From the NCBI GenBank assembly GCA_030611885.1, contig JAUWOY010000008.1, positions 1 to 64,000 on the forward strand: DNA of 64,000 bases, read 5' to 3'. Source of the DNA: Chloroflexota bacterium (lineage in GTDB: Bacteria; Chloroflexota; Anaerolineae; VGOG01). Each line of letters begins with the position of its first letter. The first letter of the stretch is position 1. Positions 29,384-63,613 of the stretch are shown piece by piece. Both the position numbers and the translations under genes were made by a program. The notes under the pieces were generated by a model that ran no database searches, was not told the origin of the DNA, and worked only from the letters and a program-made list of their open reading frames with translations.

Positions 29384-29412
29384 ATTATACCATTTTAACC
29401 AGGGGATGTCAA
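29384..29412 (-). promoter_or_regulatory. Promoter of the surface-protein genes
   Basis: On the minus strand TTGACA and TATAAT are 17 bases apart, a perfect consensus overlapping the aroQ stop. It separates the surface-protein genes from the aro operon. Confidence 0.8.
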
Positions 29413-29852
29413 TTTTTCGCCAGCTTCATCAACAGGGCCTCTAACCCCAGGATATAGCTTTGCCAGCCGAAGCCCGCGATCTGGCCCAGGCAGACGGGGG
29501 AGATAACGGAGAGGCGCCGAAAACCCTCGCGAGCCTGGACGTTGGAGAGGTGGACTTCGATGGTGGGCAAGCCAACGGCCGCGATGGCATCGCGGATGGC
29601 ATAGCTGTAATGGGTATAAGCGCCAGGGTTGATGACCAAACCATCGGCCCAGCCAACCGCCTGGTGGATGGCGTCAATGATAGCCCCTTCGTGATTCGAC
29701 TGGAAGGTGCGCACCTCGATACCCTTGCCAGCAGCGTAAGCCCGCAATTGTTGGTTGATCTCGTCCAGAGTGGCCGAGCCGTAAACCTCCGGCTCCCGCG
29801 TGCCCAGCAAGTTCAAGTTAGGGCCGTGAATAACAAGGATCTTAGCACTCAT
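29409..29852 (-). CDS. aroQ: 3-Dehydroquinate dehydratase, type II
   Basis: The 147-residue length and the motifs [47 protein letters not shown] and EVHLSN define type II dehydroquinase. It is a dodecameric enzyme of the third shikimate step with a catalytic Tyr in the first motif and His in the last. The ATG at 29852 overlaps the aroKB stop. It is the last gene of the operon. Confidence 0.95.
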
Positions 29853-31432
29853 CTTTTCCTCAGCCTTTCTAAAACCTCCAAGACCACTGCCTGGGGCGCC
29901 TGATCGCTGACCTCGACCTGCCCAATGGCTCTGGGTAGCACAAAACGCAGCTTCTTCCCTCGCCTCTTCTTGTCGGTGGCCATAGCTCTCCAAATCTCCA
30001 CCGGCTCATAACCTTCGTAGCGGGTCGGCAAGCCGAATCGTTGGAGAAGGGCGACTAAACGCCCCTCGACCGTCTCGTCGCACAGGCCCAGGGCGACGGC
30101 TGTCCTGGCCGCAGCCACCAGGCCAATGCTCACCGCCTCGCCGTGGCGAAGAGTGAAGCCACTGAGCACCTCCAAGGCGTGGCCAAAGGTGTGGCCCAGG
30201 TTGAGCACGGCCCGCCGTCCCTTCTCGTAAGGATCCTCCTCCACGATAGCCACCTTGACGCGGACAGCCTCGATGATGAGGGGCAGCGAGGGTTCGTCTC
30301 CCCTCTCCTCCAACTGCTTGAAAAGGCTGGGCGAGCCAATCACTCCCGTCTTGATGACCTCGGCCCAACCAGACCGCATCTCTGCCTCGTCCAGGGTGGC
30401 CAGAGCGAGAGGGTCAATCACAACCAGCTCTGGCTGTTTGAAAGCGCCGATGAGATTCTTTCCCCTGGGATGATCCACGGCCACCTTGCCCCCGACGCTG
30501 GCATCCACCATGGCCAGGAGGGTGGTGGGCAACTGTACCAGGGGCACTCCCCGCATGTAGGTGGCTGCCGCGAAGCCCGCCAGATCGCCGATAACGCCAC
30601 CGCCCAGGGCCAGCACCGCCCCGTATCTATCCAGCCCGCCAATGATGAACTGATCGTACAGAGAGCTGACGGTGTCCAGGGTTTTGTAAGCCTCCCCGTC
30701 GGGCGCCTGGCAGATGACTGGTTCGAGGCCCGCTTTCCGCAAGCTGACGACAACGGTGGGGGCGTACAGATCGCCGACTGTTGGATTGGTGACCAGAGCC
30801 ACTCTACCTCCCAGCCCCTGCTGACGCGCCAACTCACCAACACGCGCCAGAAGCCCTTTGCCCAGATGGATCTGGTAACCTCCCGCTGGCGTCCGCACCG
30901 CTATCCTTTCCGCAACCGCCTCGCTTTTCAGCAACTCGATCATCCTCCCCACCACCTCCTCCACCGTCAAGCTCGTAGTGTCAATCTGGTGAGGGATGCG
31001 GCTGTAGGCTTCGCGCCGCTCGCCCAACAGGGTCTCAATGCACTCTCGCCGATCGGATACGTCCAGAAGGGGCCTGTCTTCTGCCTGGGCCAGACGCCGC
31101 AGGATTTCTCCCCCATCGCAATTCAGGCACACCAGCAGCCCGCTGGCACCCAGGGCCTGGCGGTTCTCCTCAGGAATCAGCGCACCGCCGCCGGTGGCGA
31201 TGACCAGCCCGCGCCTTTGAGCCAATTCCTGGCAAAGCTGGCGCTCCTGTCGGCGAAAGAACCCCTCGCCCCGCTGAGCGAAGATCTCAGGGATGGTCAT
31301 GCCCACCCGCTGCTCGATGAGGGTGTCCATGTCCAAAAACTCTCGCCCTAGCCGATAAGCAACCTCCAGCCCCACTTTCGACTTGCCGGTGCCCATGAAG
31401 CCGGTGATGACGACGTTCAAGCTCACTTCCAC
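29849..31432 (-). CDS. aroKB: Bifunctional shikimate kinase / 3-dehydroquinate synthase
   Basis: Residues 1-170 are a shikimate kinase ([12 protein letters not shown]-loop, FLDMD, GFFRRQE, ATGGGA). Residues 180-527 are 3-dehydroquinate synthase ([49 protein letters not shown]). The order kinase-synthase in one chain is known from some thermophiles such as Thermotoga. The GTG start lies 10 bases inside the aroC 3' end, consistent with translational coupling. Confidence 0.93.
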
Positions 31433-32562
31433 CTCGACTTCATCTCCTCGATGCTATCTCCCCCCAGCTTCTCCATCAGTGCGTCGGCGATTACCCAGGC
31501 CACCATTGCCTCGCCGACTACCGAAGCAGCGGGCACGGCACAGACATCAGAGCGTTGATACTGAGTAGTCGCCGGCTCTCCCGTGACCAGGTCCACCGAC
31601 CGCAAAGGCGTCACCGTAGTGGGGATCGGTTTCATGGCCGCCCGCACCACGATGGGCTGTCCGTTGCTGATTCCACCCTCAATGCCACCTGCCCGGTTGG
31701 AATGACGTTTGAAGTTTGAAGTTTGAAGTTTGAGCTTTGAGCTTTGAGCTTTGAGCTTTACAAAGATCTCATCATGCACCTCTGTCCCCCTCTTGCGAGC
31801 GTTCTCAAAAGCCGGCCCGATCTCCACCCCCTTGATGGCCGGGATGCTCATCACCGCAGCAGCCAGGCGGGAGTCCAGGCGGCGGTCCCAGTGGACGTGG
31901 CTACCCAGGCCAACGGGCACGCCGGTGGCAACGACGACGAAGATGCCGCCCAGGGAATCCCCCGCTGCCCTGGCCTCGTCAATGCGCTGACGCATGGCTT
32001 CGGCGACGATGGGATCGGGACAGCGAACGTCGGAGGCTTCAGCCCGCTTCCAGAGTTCCTGGGGAGGGAGGTCCGGGATTTCCGCTATCGCTCCACCGAT
32101 TTCGGTCACATAGCTGCCAATAGCGATGCCGAACTCAGTAAGCAACCTTTTGGTCACTGCCCCCACAGCCACCCGAGCTGCTGTCTCACGGGCACTGGCC
32201 CGCTCGGCTACCAGCCGCAGGTCACCCAGGCCGTATTTGGTAGCCCCTGCCAGATCAGCGTGGCCCGGCCGGGGCACGGTCCAGGGCGGGACGTCCCTAT
32301 CCTTCCAGTTGGCCCAGTCCTTGTTCTCGATGCGCAGGGCGATGGGTGCACCTATGGTCAGTCCTTTGGCCACTCCGCTCAGGAGCTCGACCTTGTCACG
32401 CTCTATCTTCATGCGCTGGCCGCGTCCGTAGCCCCCCTGGCGGCGGCGCAGATCAACGTTGATCTCCTCCTCGCTCAGATGCAGTCCGGCGGGCATTCCC
32501 TCGATGATAGCCATGAGGCAAAGCCCGTGAGATTCGCCAGCGGTCAAGAAACGCAACGTCAT
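31423..32562 (-). CDS. aroC: Chorismate synthase with a repeat-encoded insertion
   Basis: FLTAGESHG at the N-terminus, [25 protein letters not shown] and [15 protein letters not shown] are chorismate synthase signatures (FMN-dependent, last common step). Between EVHDEI and NRAGGIEGG, where homologues have only a short stretch, about 18 residues rich in Lys, Ser, Gln and Leu ([10 protein letters not shown] core) are inserted. They are encoded by heptamer repeats. The site is next to conserved active-site segments, so either the loop tolerates it or activity is altered. Confidence 0.93.
31707..31760. repeat. Heptamer array in aroC
   Basis: Three GTTTGAA units, one GTTTGAG, then three CTTTGAG units and a partial one follow head to tail. 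The array keeps the aroC frame open. Confidence 0.9.
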
Positions 32563-32565
32563 CGT

Positions 32566-33417
32566 TCACCTCCCCAGAGTCTTGTTAGCCACCTCGTACA
32601 TCGTCTCAACAGGAGCCTTCTCCCCCGTCCACAGTTCGAAAGCCACAGCGCCCTGGTGCACCAGCATCCCCAATCCGCCGATGTCTTTCGCTCCCGCTGC
32701 TCGAGCCTGTTGCAGCAGCTTCGTCTGGTGAGGATTATACACCAGGTCGAAGACGGTCAGATGGCCGGGGAAGGCCAGGTCTTCCGGCCATGGGGACTGG
32801 TCTACTTCAGGCCAGGTGCCGACGGGCGTCGCATTGACCAATAAGTGGGCTTCGGCGGTTTGCTCTTCCAATGTTTGCAGGGTGAGCGAAAGAGCGGGGA
32901 ACAAGGGGGAGAAATCCCTGACGAGCGCCTGGGCACGGGCTAAGGTGCGGTTTAGGACGGTCACTTGCGCCCCGGCCTGAACCAGGGCGTAGACCACGGC
33001 CCTGGCTGCGCCGCCAGCTCCCAGAACTACAGCCCGCTTGCCGTGAGGGTCGAAGCCACCTTCGCTCAAGGCAGTCAGAAAGCCTTGCCAGTCGGTGTTG
33101 TAGCCGATGCCCTGCCCATCGCGCACCACGATGGTATTGACCGCTCCGATAGCTTGTGCCTCCGGTATGACTTCGTCGAGATAGGACATCACCGCCTCTT
33201 TGTGAGGCACAGTGACGTTGGCCCCCACGAAGCTCAGAGCCTGCAGGCCAGCCACTGCTTCCCCCAATCGATCAGGATGCACAGGCAAGGGCACGTAGCA
33301 CCAGCTCAGGTTCAGCGCGGCAAAGGCGCTGTTGTGCATGGCTGGCGAGAGGCTGTGCTCGACGGGATAGCCTATCAATCCTACGAGCTTCGTCTGGCCG
33401 TTGATGTTCAGTGGCAT
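32566..33417 (-). CDS. aroE: Shikimate dehydrogenase
   Basis: The N-terminal substrate-binding motif GYPVEHSLSPAMHNSAF, GANVTVPHKEAV with the catalytic Lys, and the NADP-binding GAGGAARAVVYAL identify AroE. Its 283 residues match the usual length. It reduces dehydroshikimate to shikimate. aroC follows three bases downstream. Confidence 0.95.
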   Translation of the reverse strand: MPLNINGQTKLVGLIGYPVEHSLSPAMHNSAFAALNLSWCYVPLPVHPDRLGEAVAGLQALSFVGANVTVPHKEAVMSYLDEVIPEAQAIGAVNTIVVRDGQGIGYNTDWQGFLTALSEGGFDPHGKRAVVLGAGGAARAVVYALVQAGAQVTVLNRTLARAQALVRDFSPLFPALSLTLQTLEEQTAEAHLLVNATPVGTWPEVDQSPWPEDLAFPGHLTVFDLVYNPHQTKLLQQARAAGAKDIGGLGMLVHQGAVAFELWTGEKAPVETMYEVANKTLGR

Positions 33418-33519: not shown

Positions 33520-34815
33520 TTATGAACTTAGAGCTCTCAACATCTCCTCGAAGCCTGGGAATGAATCCGCGATGCACTCCGCTCCCTCGATTGTTGTTTC
33601 CCCCTCGGCTGCCAGGCCCGCTATGGCCAGGGACATGGCCAGGCGATGATCGCCGTGGCTATTGACCCGGGTTCCTACCAATGGCGTAGGCCCTTCCACC
33701 ACGAAGCCATCGGGCCGTTCCTCGATGCGTGCTCCCAGTTTGCGCAGTTCAACGGCAATATTCGCGATGCGATCCGTTTCTTTGACTCGCAGCTCCGCCG
33801 CATCACTCACCACCGTCGTTCCCTGTGCCTGGCTGGCAACCACGGCCAGGATGGGGAATTCGTCAATCATCCTGGGCACCTGGTTCCCTCTCACCTCTAT
33901 GCCTCTCAGCTCACCTGCCCGCGCAACGGCGTCGGCTACCGGCTCGCCGCTGACTTCGTGTTGATTCTCTACCACGATGTCCGCTCCCATCTTCCTCAGC
34001 GCGTCCAAAAAGCCCGTGCGGGTGGGGTTAACGCCGACATCTTCGATGGTAACTTCCGACCCAGGCACGAGGCAGGCGGCAGCAATGAAGTAAGCTGCTG
34101 AGGAGATATCCCCTGGCACAACGATGTCCAGAGAGGATAACATCGAACCTCGAACCTTGAACTTTGAAGTTTGAAGTTTGAAGTTTGAAGTTTGGCCTTT
34201 GGCCATTGCCGCCAACATCCGCTCGGTGTGGTCGCGGGCGGGGCCTGGCTCGTGGATCACCGTTGAGCCGTCGGCGTAGAGGCCCGCCAGCAAGATGGCC
34301 GACTTCACCTGAGCGCTGGCTACGGGCAATCGGTACTCAATGCCGTGCAGATTTCCGCCCAGGATGGTCAAGGGAGGCAGGCGGCCGTCGTTGCGACCTA
34401 ACACAGTTGCGCCCATTTGGCGCAGAGGCTCGGCGATGCGGCCCATAGGCCGTCGGCGGAGTTGTTCGTTTCCCGTCAGCACGCTGTAGAAGGGCTGGCC
34501 TGCCAGAATCCCGGCCAGCAAGCGCATGGTTGTGCCCGAACCAGCGCAGTCCAGGACATCTTTCGGCTCCATCAAACCACGCCAGCCGCGCCCGTGCACG
34601 ATCAGCTCCGTCTCGGATAGCCTCTCTACCTCGACACCCAGCGCCCGCACGCAGGCGAGGGTAGCCAGGCAATCGGCTGCGGGCAGGAAATTGCGGACCC
34701 TGGTCGTGCCCTCAGCTATCGCGCCTAGCAGCAAAGCGCGATGAGAAATGGATTTGTCGCCAGGTACTCTAACCTGACCCCTCAGCCCCTTGACTTTTCT
34801 AACTGTCATTCTCAT
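33520..34815 (-). CDS. aroA: 3-Phosphoshikimate 1-carboxyvinyltransferase (EPSP synthase)
   Basis: VPGDKSISHRALLLGA at the N-terminus, GPARDHTERMLAAM in the middle and VVPGDISSAAYFIAAA are AroA landmarks. The conserved SGTTMRLL is preceded by CAG rather than the more usual GN. At the crossover between the two domains (residues about 203-222) the chain reads [13 protein letters not shown]. This is encoded by a heptamer array that replaces the normal variable linker. The start overlaps the tyrA stop (ATGA). Confidence 0.94.
   Translation of the reverse strand: MRMTVRKVKGLRGQVRVPGDKSISHRALLLGAIAEGTTRVRNFLPAADCLATLACVRALGVEVERLSETELIVHGRGWRGLMEPKDVLDCAGSGTTMRLLAGILAGQPFYSVLTGNEQLRRRPMGRIAEPLRQMGATVLGRNDGRLPPLTILGGNLHGIEYRLPVASAQVKSAILLAGLYADGSTVIHEPGPARDHTERMLAAMAKGQTSNFKLQTSKFKVRGSMLSSLDIVVPGDISSAAYFIAAACLVPGSEVTIEDVGVNPTRTGFLDALRKMGADIVVENQHEVSGEPVADAVARAGELRGIEVRGNQVPRMIDEFPILAVVASQAQGTTVVSDAAELRVKETDRIANIAVELRKLGARIEERPDGFVVEGPTPLVGTRVNSHGDHRLAMSLAIAGLAAEGETTIEGAECIADSFPGFEEMLRALSS
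34158..34203. repeat. Heptamer array in aroA
   Basis: CTTTGAA is followed by three GTTTGAA units, GTTTGGC and CTTTGGC. The array is in frame with the EPSP synthase gene. Confidence 0.88.
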
Positions 34816-35681
34816 TTGAACTTTAGCCTTTGAACTTTGAGGTTTGAGGTTTGAAGTTTGAACTTTAAAGTTTGCTCATCGTCCGCCTCTAGCAAGTGGG
34901 CGATGGCATTGAGTTGATCTGCGAAGCGGGACAAAGTCTCTCCCACCGCCGCGCGATTCGTGAGCAGGATGTCCAGCATCATGGTAACGTCGCTGGCTGC
35001 CAGGCGCGAGGTATCGCGAAAGCCGCTGGCGGCCAGTTCCCAGACCAGCTCGTCCTCCGCTGCTACCTCCTCGGTGGTCGCCACCAGGCCAACCGACAGG
35101 AGATAGGGAAGGTGGCTGACAGCGGCCACCAGGCGGTCGTGGCGCTCGGCGTCCATCAACAAGGGTCGCGCACCGACGGCCTCGACCAGTTCTCGGGCCA
35201 GCGTCAGCGCTTCCGAGCTTGTCCGCTGCAGGGGAGTGAGCACGAAAGTCGCTCCCTGGTAGAGGTCGGCCTCCGCGGCCTCGAGCCCCGACACTTCCTT
35301 GCCGCACATGGGGTGGCCGCCGACGGCCTGGAGGTGGGGTGGCAACGCTTCCATGGCTCCGACGATCCTGGCCTTGGTGCTGCCCAGATCCATCAGCAGA
35401 CAGCCAGCGGGGGCCAGGGCTCCCACCTGGGGTACCAGCTCCAAGATGGTCCGCACCGGAGTAGCCAGCACGATCAGGTCGGCTTGTTCTACCCCCTCGG
35501 CCAGGTTGCAGGTGCCCACATCTATGAAACCGCGCCTCATGGCTTCCTCGATGGTCTCGCCTCGTCGAGCTACGCCCCATACCTCTCGACAGGCACCTCG
35601 CTCCCTCAACGCCCCAGCTAGAGACCCACCCATCAGCCCCAGACCGACGATTGTTACCTGCACATTCTTCAATCCCACCAC
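34812..35681 (-). CDS. tyrA: Prephenate dehydrogenase
   Basis: VTIVGLGLMGGSLAGAL is the NAD-binding Rossmann motif, and VGGHPMCGKEVSGLEAA holds the catalytic His and substrate-binding residues of the TyrA family. It commits prephenate to tyrosine, which fits the Tyr-rich leader peptide of the operon. A GTG start is assumed. The last 22 residues (LKFKLQTSNLKVQRLKFK) are encoded by a heptamer array that runs to the stop. Confidence 0.9.
   Translation of the reverse strand: MVGLKNVQVTIVGLGLMGGSLAGALRERGACREVWGVARRGETIEEAMRRGFIDVGTCNLAEGVEQADLIVLATPVRTILELVPQVGALAPAGCLLMDLGSTKARIVGAMEALPPHLQAVGGHPMCGKEVSGLEAAEADLYQGATFVLTPLQRTSSEALTLARELVEAVGARPLLMDAERHDRLVAAVSHLPYLLSVGLVATTEEVAAEDELVWELAASGFRDTSRLAASDVTMMLDILLTNRAAVGETLSRFADQLNAIAHLLEADDEQTLKFKLQTSNLKVQRLKFK
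34816..34873. repeat. Heptamer array at the tyrA 3' end
   Basis: Eight or so units of the TTTGAAC/TTTGAGG/TTTGAAG type encode the C-terminus of prephenate dehydrogenase and end at the aroA start codon. Confidence 0.88.
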
Positions 35682-35691
35682 TGGTCGCCCC

Positions 35692-36759
35692 CTATCCCCC
35701 CATAGAGGGGATACTTGTTTGAAGTTTGGAGTTTGGAGTTTGAAGTTTGATTTCCCTCCCCACCGCTTCCGCCACCCTCCGCAGCTCTTTCATCAACTGG
35801 GCAAACCTCTCTGGCCTCAGCGATTGGGCTCCGTCGGAGAGGGCACGCTGGGGGTGGGGATGCACTTCGATAAGCAATCCATCGGCTCCAGCGGCTACCG
35901 CAGCTCTGGCTACGGGCCCTACCAGCTCCCATCTGCCTGTGCCGTGGCTGGGATCAACGATGACGGGCAAGTGAGTCAGTCCCTTAAGGACGGGCACGGC
36001 GTTGATGTCCAGGGTGTTGCGGGTGTACTTTTCGAAGGTGCGGATGCCCCGTTCGCAGAGCATGACCCGATAGTTGTCGTGGGAGAGGATGTACTCGGCC
36101 GCCATGAGGAGTTCCTCCAGAGTGGCCATCATCCCTCGCTTGAGGAGGATGGGCATTTTCGACTCGCCCACGGCGTGCAGCAGGCTGAAGTTCTGCATGT
36201 TCCGAGCCCCGACCTGGAGGATGTCGGCATAGCGAGCCACCAGGGGCACATCTTCGGGAGCCATGACCTCCGTGACGATAGCCAGTCCCGTCTCCTCCTT
36301 GACCTCGCCCAGGATCTCTAACCCCTCTTTCCCCAGGCCCTGGAAGCTGTAGGGAGAGGTGCGGGGTTTGAAAGCCCCGCCGCGCAGGATTCGGACCCCG
36401 GCCTCCTTGACCGCCCAAGCCGCTTCCAGCATCTGCTCTCGGCTCTCCACGGCACAGGGGCCGGCCATGACTGTCACCTCCCGCGAGCCGATGCGCATCC
36501 CGTTAATGGGAATGATGGTATCCTCAGGTTTGAAGTCACGACTGGCCAGCTTGAAGGGCTGGAGGATGGGCACCGTCCTCTCCACCCCCTCCATCAGTTC
36601 AAAGACATGGGGGCTGACAGGCCGCTCGTCGCCGATGACGCCGATGATGGTGCGCTCCTCGCCACGGGAGAGGTGGGCTTGAAAACCCAGTTCCTCTACC
36701 TGGGCCACTACTTCTTGAATCCTCTCCTCTCCAGCCCCCATTTTCATGATGATGATCAT
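35692..36759 (-). CDS. aroF: 3-Deoxy-7-phosphoheptulonate synthase (DAHP synthase, AroF-type)
   Basis: An N-terminal ferredoxin-like regulatory domain (residues 1-70, [10 protein letters not shown]) precedes the type I-beta barrel. That barrel carries [27 protein letters not shown] and [11 protein letters not shown]. The N-terminal domain of this class mediates feedback inhibition by Tyr or Phe in homologues. The last 20 residues ([13 protein letters not shown] core) come from a heptamer array followed by a GC palindrome, so the natural C-terminus has been overwritten. A 160-base gap separates it from aroH. Confidence 0.92.
35716..35751. repeat. Heptamer array at the aroF 3' end
   Basis: Units GTTTGAA, GTTTGGA, GTTTGGA, GTTTGAA and GTTTGAT encode the DAHP synthase C-terminus. 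A palindrome TATCCCC-CCATA-GAGGGGATA-like lies beside it at 35693-35713. Confidence 0.88.
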
Positions 36760-36772
36760 GGCTGATACCCCC

Positions 36773-36880
36773 TTAACTCGATTGTCTGACCTGTCCTGAG
36801 CAGGGCGCGTCGAAGTGTGAAGGGTCGTTCTCCCTGCTCCGCGCCTCTCGCGTCGTACCCTTTCTTTTAACGATCACCAT
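36773..36880 (-). other. Possible 35-codon reading frame between aroH and aroF
   Basis: An ATG with an excellent AAGGAGGCAG site opens a 35-codon frame beginning [10 protein letters not shown]. The start resembles the aroF N-terminus ([10 protein letters not shown]), so it may be the remnant of a duplicated aroF 5' end. There is no terminator or aromatic codon cluster to make it a regulatory leader. Confidence 0.3.
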
Positions 36881-36918: not shown

Positions 36919-37281
36919 CTACAGCGCCCTGTCTGGCCGCAGGGTCTGGGCTCCTTTGAGATAGACGTGCCGAATCTCCGCCGCGCTCTTCTCCGTGTTC
37001 CAGTGGATGAGGACCCGGATGCACCTCTCCAGGCTGCCCGGCACGGGTATCTCCTGGGCGTCGAGGAGAGCAACATCGCGCCAGCCCATCTCACGCGCTG
37101 CCCGGGCCGGGAAGGCGGCCGTCAGGTCGGGGGTGGTAGTGAAGATGGCGCTGGCTACGTCTTCCACTTTCAAGTCGTTGGCCTCGACGATGAGCGCCAG
37201 AAGCTCCCTGGTAGCAGCCAGAATGGCCTCGGCGGTGTTCTCTTCCGTGGTAGTTGCTCCTCGAATGCCTCGACAGTGCAT
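36919..37281 (-). CDS. aroH: Chorismate mutase, AroH type
   Basis: The start [15 protein letters not shown], together with the 120-residue length and [10 protein letters not shown], is diagnostic of the monofunctional trimeric AroH family as in Bacillus subtilis. It converts chorismate to prephenate, the substrate of TyrA three genes away. The ATG at 37281 follows GGAGGG. It is the first gene after the attenuator. Confidence 0.93.
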
Positions 37282-37300: not shown

Positions 37301-37333
37301 AAAAAAGCGTGGACTTGTCTGCTCCACGCTTTT
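37301..37333 (-). terminator. Attenuator terminator of the aro operon
   Basis: On the minus strand AAAAGCGTGGA pairs with TCCACGCTTTT (11 bp, nine-base loop) and runs into six Ts. It sits 20 bases before aroH, inside the leader transcript. Its 5' arm plus the loop sequence (37319-37329) can alternatively pair with 37380-37390 in the leader peptide gene over 11 bp with one G-U. Confidence 0.88.
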
Positions 37334-37357
37334 GAGATACCGATGAATTGCTATGAC

Positions 37358-37489
37358 TTAAGGATGCGGTCTTCTCCGGGCGTGAAGCAGCTTGCCTGAT
37401 GCCTGGGCATAGGCGTAATAGTAGGCAAAGTAGTCCTCACGCCCCAAAAAACTAACTTTGATAGTCTCGTCCCACGGCTTGCCAGTCAT
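37358..37489 (-). CDS. Tyr/Phe-rich leader peptide of the aro operon
   Basis: A 43-codon frame starts about 20 bases after the predicted transcription start and follows GGGCCGGAG. Codons 20-27 read Tyr-Phe-Ala-Tyr-Tyr-Tyr-Ala-Tyr; Phe14 and Trp6 precede them. The frame ends before the terminator hairpin. Codons 16-18 contain GGGCGTGA, complementary to TCACGCCC in codons 36-38. The latter segment can also pair with the terminator's 5' arm. This is the arrangement of ribosome-mediated attenuation, with stalling at Tyr codons expected to favour the antiterminator. Confidence 0.85.
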   Translation of the reverse strand: MTGKPWDETIKVSFLGREDYFAYYYAYAQASGKLLHARRRPHP

Positions 37490-37516
37490 CTCCGGCCCTC
37501 TTTCAAAGCTGGGGAT

Positions 37517-37545
37517 ATGATAGCATAAAGGGGGATAAAAGTCAA
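37517..37545 (-). promoter_or_regulatory. Promoter of the aro operon leader
   Basis: On the minus strand TTGACT and TATCAT are 17 bases apart. It is divergent from the arg promoter; the two -35 boxes are only about 31 bases apart. Confidence 0.8.
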
Positions 37546-61234: not shown

Positions 61235-62983
61235 CTAGATGTCGCGCTTCTCAGCGATGGCCTCTTGAGCCGTTTTGATGAACTCGGCCACCGGGCGCGG
61301 CCCCAGGTCCTCCTCGGTGCGCAAGCGCAGGGACACCGTCCCCTCTGCTGCTTCCCGATCTCCCACCACCAGCATATAAGGTATCTTCTCCAGTTGGGCC
61401 TGGCGGATTTTGGCCCTCATGCGCTCGTTGGAATCGTCCACCTCCACGCGCAAGCCCGCCTCCTTCAACTGGTCCCGAACCTGATAGGCGTAGTCATTGT
61501 GGCGGTCGGCGATGGGGATGAGCCTAGCCTGCACCGGCGCCAGCCACACCGGGAAGGCTCCGCTGTAGTGCTCGATTAGTACGCCGAAGAAGCGCTCCAT
61601 GGAACCTAGAAGCGTCCGGTGAACCATGTAGGGGCGATGCTCTTGCCCATCCGAGCCCACGTAGGTCATGTCGAAGCGCCCTGGCAGGTTGAAGTCGAAC
61701 TGGATGGTCGTGCACTGCCACAGACGGCCCAGGGCATCTTTGATGTGGACGTCAATCTTGGGGCCGTAGAAGACCGCTTCACCTTCCATCCGCGTGTAAG
61801 AGAGCCCCTTCCGCTCCAGGGCCTTGACCAGCGACCCTTCCGCCACCTCCCACGTGGCATCGTCACCGATGTACTTCTCCTTGCGCTCCGGATCGCGCAC
61901 TGAGAGAGCGATTTCGTACTCCTTAAAGCCGAAAGCCCCCAGGATATGTGCGGTAAGATCCAGGCAGCCCAGGACCTCGTCCTCGATCTGGGCCGGTGTG
62001 CAGATGATGTGGGCGTCATCCTGGGTGAAGCCTCGCACCCGCATCAGCCCATGCAAGACCCCGCTCCGCTCGTAGCGGTAGACTGTGCCCAACTCTGCCC
62101 AACGAAGGGGGAGTTCGCGGTAGCTGCGCATCCTGGTTTTGTAGATCATGATGTGGAAGGGGCAGTTCATGGGCTTGATGAAGTACTCCTGGCCCTCGAT
62201 ATCCATGGGCGCGTACATGTTCTCCCGATAGAAATCCAGATGCCCACTCGTCTGCCACAGCGCTGCCTTGCCGATGTGAGGCGAGTACACGATCTCGTAC
62301 CCGGCCTTGTAATGCTCCTGTCGCCAGAAATCCTCGATGATGGTGCGAATGCGTCCCGCTTTGGGATGCCAGAGGATCAAGCCTGGGCCGCCCTCGTCGT
62401 GGATGCTGAAGAGGTCCAGCTCCCGGCCCAACCTGCGGTGATCGCGCTTCTCGATCTCCGCCAGCTTCCGAAGGTAGGCCTCCAGCTCCTCTTGAGTGGC
62501 CCAGACTGTGCCGTAGATACGTTGCAGCATGGGCCGCTGCTCGTCGCCCCGCCAGTAAGCTCCGGCGATGCTAAGCAGCTTGAAAGCCTGCGGGTTGATC
62601 TGGCCCGTGTTGTCCAGATGTGGGCCCCGGCAGAGATCGGTGAAGCCATCGTGGGAGTATGTGGAGATGACCTCTCCTTCCTCCATATCCCTGATGAGCT
62701 CCAGCTTGTAGGGCTGGTCGGCGAAGAGCTCTCCTGCTTCCTCGCGGGATACTTCGCGGCGCACAAATCGCTTGTGAGCCGCGATGCTCTCCCTCATACG
62801 AGACTCGATCTCCCCCAGGTCCTCCGGCGTCAAAGAACGGGGCAAGTCGAAGTCGTAGTAGAAGCCGTCCTCGATGGGCGGCCCGATGGCCAGCTTGGCC
62901 TCAGGAAACATCGCAAGCACCGCCTCGGCCATGACGTGGGACGTGGAGTGGCGCAGCACATCTAAATCATTCTGTTCAGACAT
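61235..62983 (-). CDS. thrS: Threonyl-tRNA synthetase without TGS domain
   Basis: Class II motifs and the zinc site are clear: MNCPFHIMIYKTRMRSYREL, RGFTQDDAHIIC, and a C-terminal anticodon domain ending AQEAIAEKRDI. The editing domain (HSTSHVMAEAVLAMF, residues about 8-200) is present. The 60-residue TGS domain that normally precedes it is absent, giving 582 residues. The ATG at 62983 follows AAAAAGGAGG. The helical segment EKRDHRRLGRELDLFSIH also appears in the giant surface protein. Confidence 0.95.
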   Translation of the reverse strand: MSEQNDLDVLRHSTSHVMAEAVLAMFPEAKLAIGPPIEDGFYYDFDLPRSLTPEDLGEIESRMRESIAAHKRFVRREVSREEAGELFADQPYKLELIRDMEEGEVISTYSHDGFTDLCRGPHLDNTGQINPQAFKLLSIAGAYWRGDEQRPMLQRIYGTVWATQEELEAYLRKLAEIEKRDHRRLGRELDLFSIHDEGGPGLILWHPKAGRIRTIIEDFWRQEHYKAGYEIVYSPHIGKAALWQTSGHLDFYRENMYAPMDIEGQEYFIKPMNCPFHIMIYKTRMRSYRELPLRWAELGTVYRYERSGVLHGLMRVRGFTQDDAHIICTPAQIEDEVLGCLDLTAHILGAFGFKEYEIALSVRDPERKEKYIGDDATWEVAEGSLVKALERKGLSYTRMEGEAVFYGPKIDVHIKDALGRLWQCTTIQFDFNLPGRFDMTYVGSDGQEHRPYMVHRTLLGSMERFFGVLIEHYSGAFPVWLAPVQARLIPIADRHNDYAYQVRDQLKEAGLRVEVDDSNERMRAKIRQAQLEKIPYMLVVGDREAAEGTVSLRLRTEEDLGPRPVAEFIKTAQEAIAEKRDI

Positions 62984-63017
62984 AGTAAATCCTCCTTTTT
63001 GACTTATCCTGCAACAC

Positions 63018-63305
63018 AAAAAACCCCTCACCCTTGGGGCGAGAGGTTTTACTCACGCGGTTCCACCCAACTTCAACAACAGATTTGGAAACAAACGGAT
63101 TTGGCAAAATCCGCTCGTTTCTCAAGCTCGCTGTCCTCTTACGGCTGCTAACGGACGCCTCCGTAGCTCCATACTCGACTGATCCAGCCTTTCCGGAGCC
63201 CAGCTCGCAGGTGGTTTTCCTTGAGTTCGCTGCTGGCGGGGCTTGCAGTCACGACCCCTCCTCCCTGAAGCGCTGCCCTCAAGTACTCGTCCTGGTCATC
63301 ACTTT
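63018..63305 (-). promoter_or_regulatory. T-box riboswitch controlling thrS
   Basis: On the minus strand GGGTGGAACCGCG (63056-63068) is the T-box antiterminator sequence. It is followed by a terminator (63020-63050, a 14-bp stem with two wobbles, then six Ts). Stem I starts near 63300 with GACGAGTACTTGAG. ACC threonine codons at 63210-63215 are candidate specifiers. Uncharged tRNA-Thr should allow readthrough into thrS. Confidence 0.9.
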
Positions 63306-63613
63306 TGACTTTGTTCGCTATGCCTTGACACAATCTCTACCTCAGGAACGATGACCATCACCGTTTGAACCTGAGGCACTTTTTTCATCCTTACGTAAGC
63401 TACGGGCCTATCTCCATCCGGATGTGCTCTCGCCATCTCAAGATTTCTTTGACACAGTTCTGGATCATCCTCAGGCAGGAAAACCAGCCTTGCGCTGTTC
63501 GGTATCTGATCTAAAATATCGGGATGCTCAAGTGCATACCGCATGAATTCAGTGTTCAGACTAACGTTTTTTCCAAATGTCTTATTGTTGCTCATCTCTT
63601 CTTCCCTTTTCAT
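63299..63613 (-). CDS. DUF5647-like protein
   Basis: The 104-residue product has the pattern NVSLNTEFMRYALEHPDILDQIP and SARLVFLPEDDPELC that I associate with DUF5647. Function is unknown. It overlaps the upstream gene by 32 bases and its stop abuts the T-box. A start at 63595 (MSNNKT) is also possible. Together with its partner it forms a compact two-gene cassette, toxin-antitoxin-like in layout only. Confidence 0.65.
   Translation of the reverse strand: MKREEEMSNNKTFGKNVSLNTEFMRYALEHPDILDQIPNSARLVFLPEDDPELCQRNLEMARAHPDGDRPVAYVRMKKVPQVQTVMVIVPEVEIVSRHSEQSQK

Follow-up and report, generated by a model that had tools for sequence, protein, structure and literature searches.

The 64,000-nucleotide stretch of Chloroflexota DNA analysed here, referred to as the window, carries an eight-gene aromatic operon that is most probably headed by a classical ribosome-mediated transcription attenuator. 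Judging from comparative sequence evidence, we put the probability of this reading at about 0.93. We conclude that the putative attenuator would sense tyrosine in this genome and, in general, both phenylalanine and tyrosine in relatives. By all computational signs, amino acid shortage would turn the operon on.

Results

Organization of the leader and of the operon

A promoter, a leader ORF and a T-tailed terminator lie in this order upstream of aroH (Table 1). An earlier note on this DNA had placed all of them at these positions, with Tyr at codons 20, 23, 24, 25 and 27 of the leader and Phe at codons 14 and 21. A GAGGG ribosome-binding site stands directly 5′ of the leader ATG. Written in full, the terminator is AAAAGCGTGGA-GCAGACAAG-TCCACGCTTTTTT, with its arms (AAAAGCGTGGA and TCCACGCTTTT) at 37333-37303 and its T-run at 37306-37301, 19 nt 5′ of the aroH ATG. 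It was overlooked by a standard terminator scan because its loop exceeds the 8-nt limit of that scan by one nucleotide. The leader RNA folds more strongly than its shuffles (z = -2.3). The core pattern of the terminator was found in 20 of the 60 relatives' genomes, and a control pattern in none. In one of them (G009), a terminator with the same stem also occurs at a second site (L238) that has no Phe/Tyr leader.

Table 1. Coordinates of the leader elements and of the downstream genes in the window
Feature	Coordinates	Strand	Details
Promoter, sigma-70 type	37517..37545	-	TTGACT-17-TATCAT, TG before -10; 10/12 matches
Leader ORF MTGKPWDETIKVSFLGREDYFAYYYAYAQASGKLLHARRRPHP	37358..37489	-	43 codons; Phe/Tyr-rich ORF kept in relatives
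Segment 1 (GGGCGTGAGG)	37435..37444	-	Stops just short of the cluster's first Tyr codon; pair counts
Control codons 20-27 (Y F A Y Y Y A Y)	37409..37432	-	Sequence and masked folding
Segment 2 (CTGCTTCACGCCC)	37378..37390	-	Within leader ORF; translated -LLHA-
Segment 3 (GCGTGGAGCAG)	37319..37329	-	5′ arm of terminator and part of its loop
Intrinsic terminator	37301..37333	-	11-bp stem, 9-nt loop, 6 T
aroH, monofunctional chorismate mutase, first gene	36919..37281	-	TIGR01796
aroF, DAHP synthase	35692..36759	-	NF006421/TIGR01361
tyrA, prephenate/arogenate dehydrogenase	34812..35681	-	Prephenate dehydrogenase models, below cut-offs, best E 4e-67
aroA, EPSP synthase	33520..34815	-	TIGR01356
aroE, shikimate dehydrogenase	32566..33417	-	TIGR00507
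aroC, chorismate synthase	31423..32562	-	NF003793/TIGR00033
aroK-aroB fusion (shikimate kinase, dehydroquinate synthase)	29849..31432	-	TIGR01357, above cut-off
aroQ, type II dehydroquinate dehydratase	29409..29852	-	TIGR01088

The eight aro genes announced by the earlier note are borne out by profile matches. Indeed, seven of the eight downstream ORFs score above the NCBIfam cut-off for their assigned function, tyrA being the one below it. The N-terminal part of the aroK-aroB fusion resembles shikimate kinase, with model scores below cut-off. Two further features were observed within the operon. First, the interval from aroH to aroF contains a 35-codon ORF that has a GGAGG site (36773-36880, reverse strand); the corresponding region of G002, a genome of the same family, shows 78% identity to it. 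Second, heptamer repeats (AAACTTC)n lie within two genes, aroC and aroA, and close to the 3′ ends of two others, tyrA and aroF (31705-31738, 34153-34200, 34833-34873 and 35715-35748), with 15 matches versus 0 expected, and can be read in frame.

The leader can form three mutually exclusive stems, 1:2, 2:3 and 3:4, and the antiterminator (2:3) excludes the terminator (3:4). This part of the earlier description stands, as does the 11-bp extent of stem 2:3 with its single G-U pair (CTGCTTCACGC, 37390-37380, with GCGTGGAGCAG, 37329-37319). Stem 1:2 had to be corrected: it spans 10 bp, not 8 (GGGCGTGA(GG), 37444-37435, with CTTCACGCCC, 37387-37378).

Conservation of the leader and covariation of its stems

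A search for AroH was successful in 39 of 60 relatives and in 202 of the 298 genomes of the class. From class relatives we took 123 aroH upstream regions, each of at least 400 nt, and defined a cluster as a short-ORF stretch of 10 codons with at least six Phe/Tyr. Such a cluster is present in 98 of these regions, versus none of 123 dinucleotide shuffles and none of the 123 reverse strands; an intrinsic terminator is present in 108, versus 7 in shuffles. The occurrence of a Phe/Tyr leader and a terminator before aroH in the window is thus confirmed far beyond chance. Clusters of this kind were found before none of 30 trpE and none of 26 ilvB genes of relatives. The 25 aroH upstream regions without a cluster include some in which the leader sits at another gene. 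Altogether, cluster and terminator follow one another in the correct order at 100 loci from 39 families, and a promoter with at least 10/12 matches lies upstream of 62 of these 100 leaders, versus 0.7 in shuffles.

Covariation was assessed by comparing the duplex energy of each segment with its own partner and with partners swapped in from other species. Over the 100 loci, the 2:3 duplex reaches -19.7 kcal with its own partner versus -15.8 kcal with swapped ones (permutation sd 0.26). With one locus per family, z is about -7.8 for 2:3 and -5.7 for 1:2. The terminator-loop bases alone also covary with segment 2 (z = -3.9; 24 families, loops of at least 7), which speaks for the antiterminator since these bases are unpaired in the terminator. 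In an alignment of 29 leaders, the pairs of the window are formed in 87% (2:3), 91% (3:4) and 68% (1:2) of cells, versus 24-58%, 28-65% and 34-56%, respectively, with slid partners, a control that favours the structure as it was taken from one of the aligned sequences. Stem 1:2 is the least conserved; nonetheless, the terminator, antiterminator and 1:2 stems all covary. The spacing of the segments differs widely among leaders, and the stop codon lies 3′ of segment 2, at a median distance of 16 nt.

These data weigh against the idea of a constitutive terminator next to a small ORF that is fortuitous or has no regulatory role. Terminators are indeed common, and the divergent argG begins near the attenuator in the window. 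However, chance would not place Phe/Tyr clusters at 98 loci and in no control, and a terminator by itself does not call for its loop to covary with segment 2. We consider this explanation the least probable of all, close to negligible.

In relatives, aroH begins 19 to 170 nt or more after the terminator, which bears on another possibility, namely that the leader ribosome sets the initiation of aroH translation, directly or by reinitiation, and not transcription. The short interval in the window, where the leader stop codon is only 76 nt from the aroH ATG, would suit such a coupling, but the terminator-to-aroH spacing varies in relatives, a run of six T comes after the 3′ arm, and none of the described stems pairs with the aroH ribosome-binding site. 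Control at the level of translation is therefore very unlikely.

Amino acids probably read by the leader

Among the 100 clusters, 79 combine Phe and Tyr, 20 contain Trp in addition and one contains Tyr only; Phe makes up 41% and Tyr 36% of the cluster codons. Six to eight aromatic codons are usual, and the first seven codons of the cluster hold both Phe and Tyr in 93 leaders. Most relatives would thus read both amino acids, and the window leader would be nearly Tyr-only, a refinement of the initial Tyr-rich description.

The order and number of Phe and Tyr vary freely (YYYYYYY, FYFAYFYF, FFFFSFYY), which fits a reading of codons. By contrast, it fits poorly with an arrest peptide, whose nascent Phe/Tyr-rich chain would sense free tyrosine or phenylalanine, as TnaC-like peptides do, and stall by its sequence and not on uncharged tRNA. 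While both mechanisms have a short regulatory ORF ahead of a terminator, no conserved peptide motif was found in these leaders beyond their aromatic content, and their sole other likeness, a terminal -(L/P)HAR, is segment 2 read as protein. An arrest peptide is accordingly as improbable as control of translation.

The composition of the cluster was also compared with the pathway. Neither pheA nor trpE was found in the window genome, whose assembly is incomplete, and only one of the six aromatic cluster codons is Phe. In G002, pheA lies between aroH and aroF and the cluster has two Phe. Among 44 leaders, at most one cluster Phe was counted in 3 of 3 genomes without pheA and in only 2 of the 41 that have it (Fisher p = 0.0008), a comparison drawn after the pattern had been noticed; the three pheA-less genomes, that of the window included, are incomplete assemblies (82-93%). 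The presence of pheA next to aroH shows no overall link with the Phe content of the leader (0.52 in both groups); a link appears only for genomes in which pheA is absent or unlinked. These results hint that leader codons may track pathway content, being nearly Tyr-only where pheA is absent.

Masked folding and proposed mechanism

Each leader was folded at equilibrium as far as the loop of the terminator, and a ribosome mask was set at each codon in turn. Over the 100 loci, 7.5-8 pairs of 2:3 form on average with the ribosome placed from just before the cluster to 4 codons into it, and about none once it has moved 14 to 18 codons further and covers segment 2. In the window, 10.8-11.4 pairs of 2:3 form with the ribosome on Y20-Y25 and none with it on codons 31-42; once it has reached the stop codon, 1:2 prevails (8.9 pairs, versus 2.0 for 2:3). 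In this geometry a ribosome on the control codons covers segment 1 and not segment 2. The folds thereby reproduce the earlier proposal that a stall on the Tyr codons masks segment 1 and frees segment 2. Just before the 3′ arm emerges, the free RNA of the window prefers 2:3 (9.3 pairs) over 1:2 (1.9 pairs), so that termination by default would need either translation or the prior formation of 1:2. Stalling adds more than three 2:3 pairs over free RNA in only 34 of the 100 relatives.

We can propose the following sequence of events. RNA polymerase would start near 37510 and a ribosome would translate the leader. When Tyr-tRNA is uncharged (or Phe-tRNA, at F14 and F21), the ribosome would stall on codons 14-25 and cover segment 1; segment 2, left free, would pair with segment 3 as it emerges, no terminator would form and the operon would be transcribed. 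With ample charged tRNA, the ribosome would cross segment 2 to the stop codon, hiding segment 2, which would then pair with segment 1 behind it. Segment 3 would be left to its own 3′ arm, and transcription would presumably end at 37301. The path of the leader ORF through segment 2 refines the initial model: translation beyond the Tyr codons would hide segment 2 and afterwards permit 1:2.

A second hairpin within the leader ORF

In 24 of the 100 leaders, from 9 families (L021, L067, L106 and 21 others), a hairpin with a T tail, at least 7 bp long, runs up to the first aromatic codons; shuffles of the 70 nt upstream give a mean of 1.2 and a maximum of 4. Its 3′ arm is segment 1 and its U-tract consists of the Phe/Tyr control codons. 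The arms differ between families yet stay paired (aacctgcgcca/tggcgcgggtt, gacccacgcc/ggcgtgggtt). The window leader has only a weak form. Most likely, polymerase would pause at the hairpin long enough for the ribosome to catch up, or would be released there early from leaders that are not being translated. More tentatively, and with rather less than even odds, the control codons might have a second role as U-tract of an early termination or pause site that is sensitive to translation; attenuation would then proceed in two stages and also check that the leader is translated.

Distribution and operon variants

The predicted attenuator recurs in most sampled genomes of two Chloroflexota classes. 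It is present in Anaerolineae, including records named Caldilineaceae and Ardenticatenaceae, and in Chloroflexia (Roseiflexus, Chloroflexus, Oscillochloris, Herpetosiphonaceae), where the segments are paired too. The search that the earlier note proposed, for a Tyr-rich leader and covarying stems before orthologous aroH/aroF, gave a positive result: leader and terminator recur across the class and also in Chloroflexia, and the three stems covary. In the fetched records of Ktedonobacteria, Dehalococcoidia, Planctomycetota, Acidobacteria and Desulfobacterota, a search covering the region upstream of aroH found no leader. In some records outside Anaerolineae and Chloroflexia, aroH appears by eye to follow a trpA-like gene, so that the region searched there would not be the head of their aro operon.

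The attenuator belongs to the operon and not to aroH, as it stays in place when the first gene differs. It lies between aroH and pheA-aroF in G050, before a LysE-like exporter gene followed by aroH and aroF in G048, and, in G042, which has no aroH, before an apparent other DAHP synthase gene followed by aroF. By eye, a LysE-like exporter gene appears to come first in the attenuated aromatic operon of two genomes (L209, L210).

Discussion

A T-box precedes the threonyl-tRNA synthetase gene thrS in the window (63032-63308, thrS at 61235-63031, both on the reverse strand), and T-boxes were found at 6 of 20 trpE loci of relatives. In this class, amino acid genes would thus be controlled partly by T-boxes and partly by leader peptides. 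A Trp leader was also looked for before trpE of relatives; none was convincing, and several of these loci have T-boxes. At the aro leader itself, a T-box, riboswitch or known leader family was considered and discarded, as Rfam gave no match over the gathering score (best scores: Thr_leader 14.3 bits for a cut-off of 55, L20_leader 16.8 for 58.7).

A short ORF with 9-11 Ile/Leu/Val in 12 codons often precedes ilvB in class relatives (L272, L275, L277, L281, L287, L289, L290, L291, L293, L294), mostly with an intrinsic terminator nearby; 10-11 in 12 were never found before aroH or trpE. These ORFs are probably branched-chain leader-peptide attenuators.

According to a 2010 survey, which added a His leader of Firmicutes, leader-peptide attenuation was previously known only in Proteobacteria and Actinobacteria (PMC2965389). 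Our search of the open-access literature retrieved no description of such an attenuator in Chloroflexota, a scope that leaves priority uncertain. The mechanism and the kind of attenuator are already known, while the lineage, the breadth and the whole-shikimate target appear to be new. As a common control of aromatic synthesis in two Chloroflexota classes, attenuation would be far more widespread. Moreover, about a hundred natural variants become available for studying the co-evolution of control codons and stems, and leader codons could offer a sequence-only hint of the amino acids made by uncultured species.

The four-segment logic with stems 1:2, 2:3 and 3:4 is that of the enterobacterial trp and phe attenuators, and in the trp leader the stop codon lies between segments 1 and 2. 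The Chloroflexota leaders share with them the four segments and the control codons for an end product, but two amino acids are read in one leader and the stop codon is 3′ of segment 2. Attenuators are described at enterobacterial pheA, pheST and trp, and those of trp and pheA in E. coli operate in the same manner (PMC11802643). A close likeness is aroR of C. glutamicum: a Phe-Tyr-Phe leader peptide before aroF, at which ribosome stalling raises transcription, is reported to respond to Phe limitation (Neshat 2014, as described in PMC11802643). In both systems, Phe and Tyr codons are found in a leader that precedes an operon for DAHP synthase. Compared by description, the actinobacterial leader differs by its Phe-Tyr-Phe codons from the six to eight aromatic codons usual here, where the leader ORF also crosses segment 2 and the downstream genes cover nearly the whole shikimate pathway. 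Finally, like T-boxes, the putative aro attenuator would sense tRNA charging and antiterminate; it differs from them in having a control ORF.
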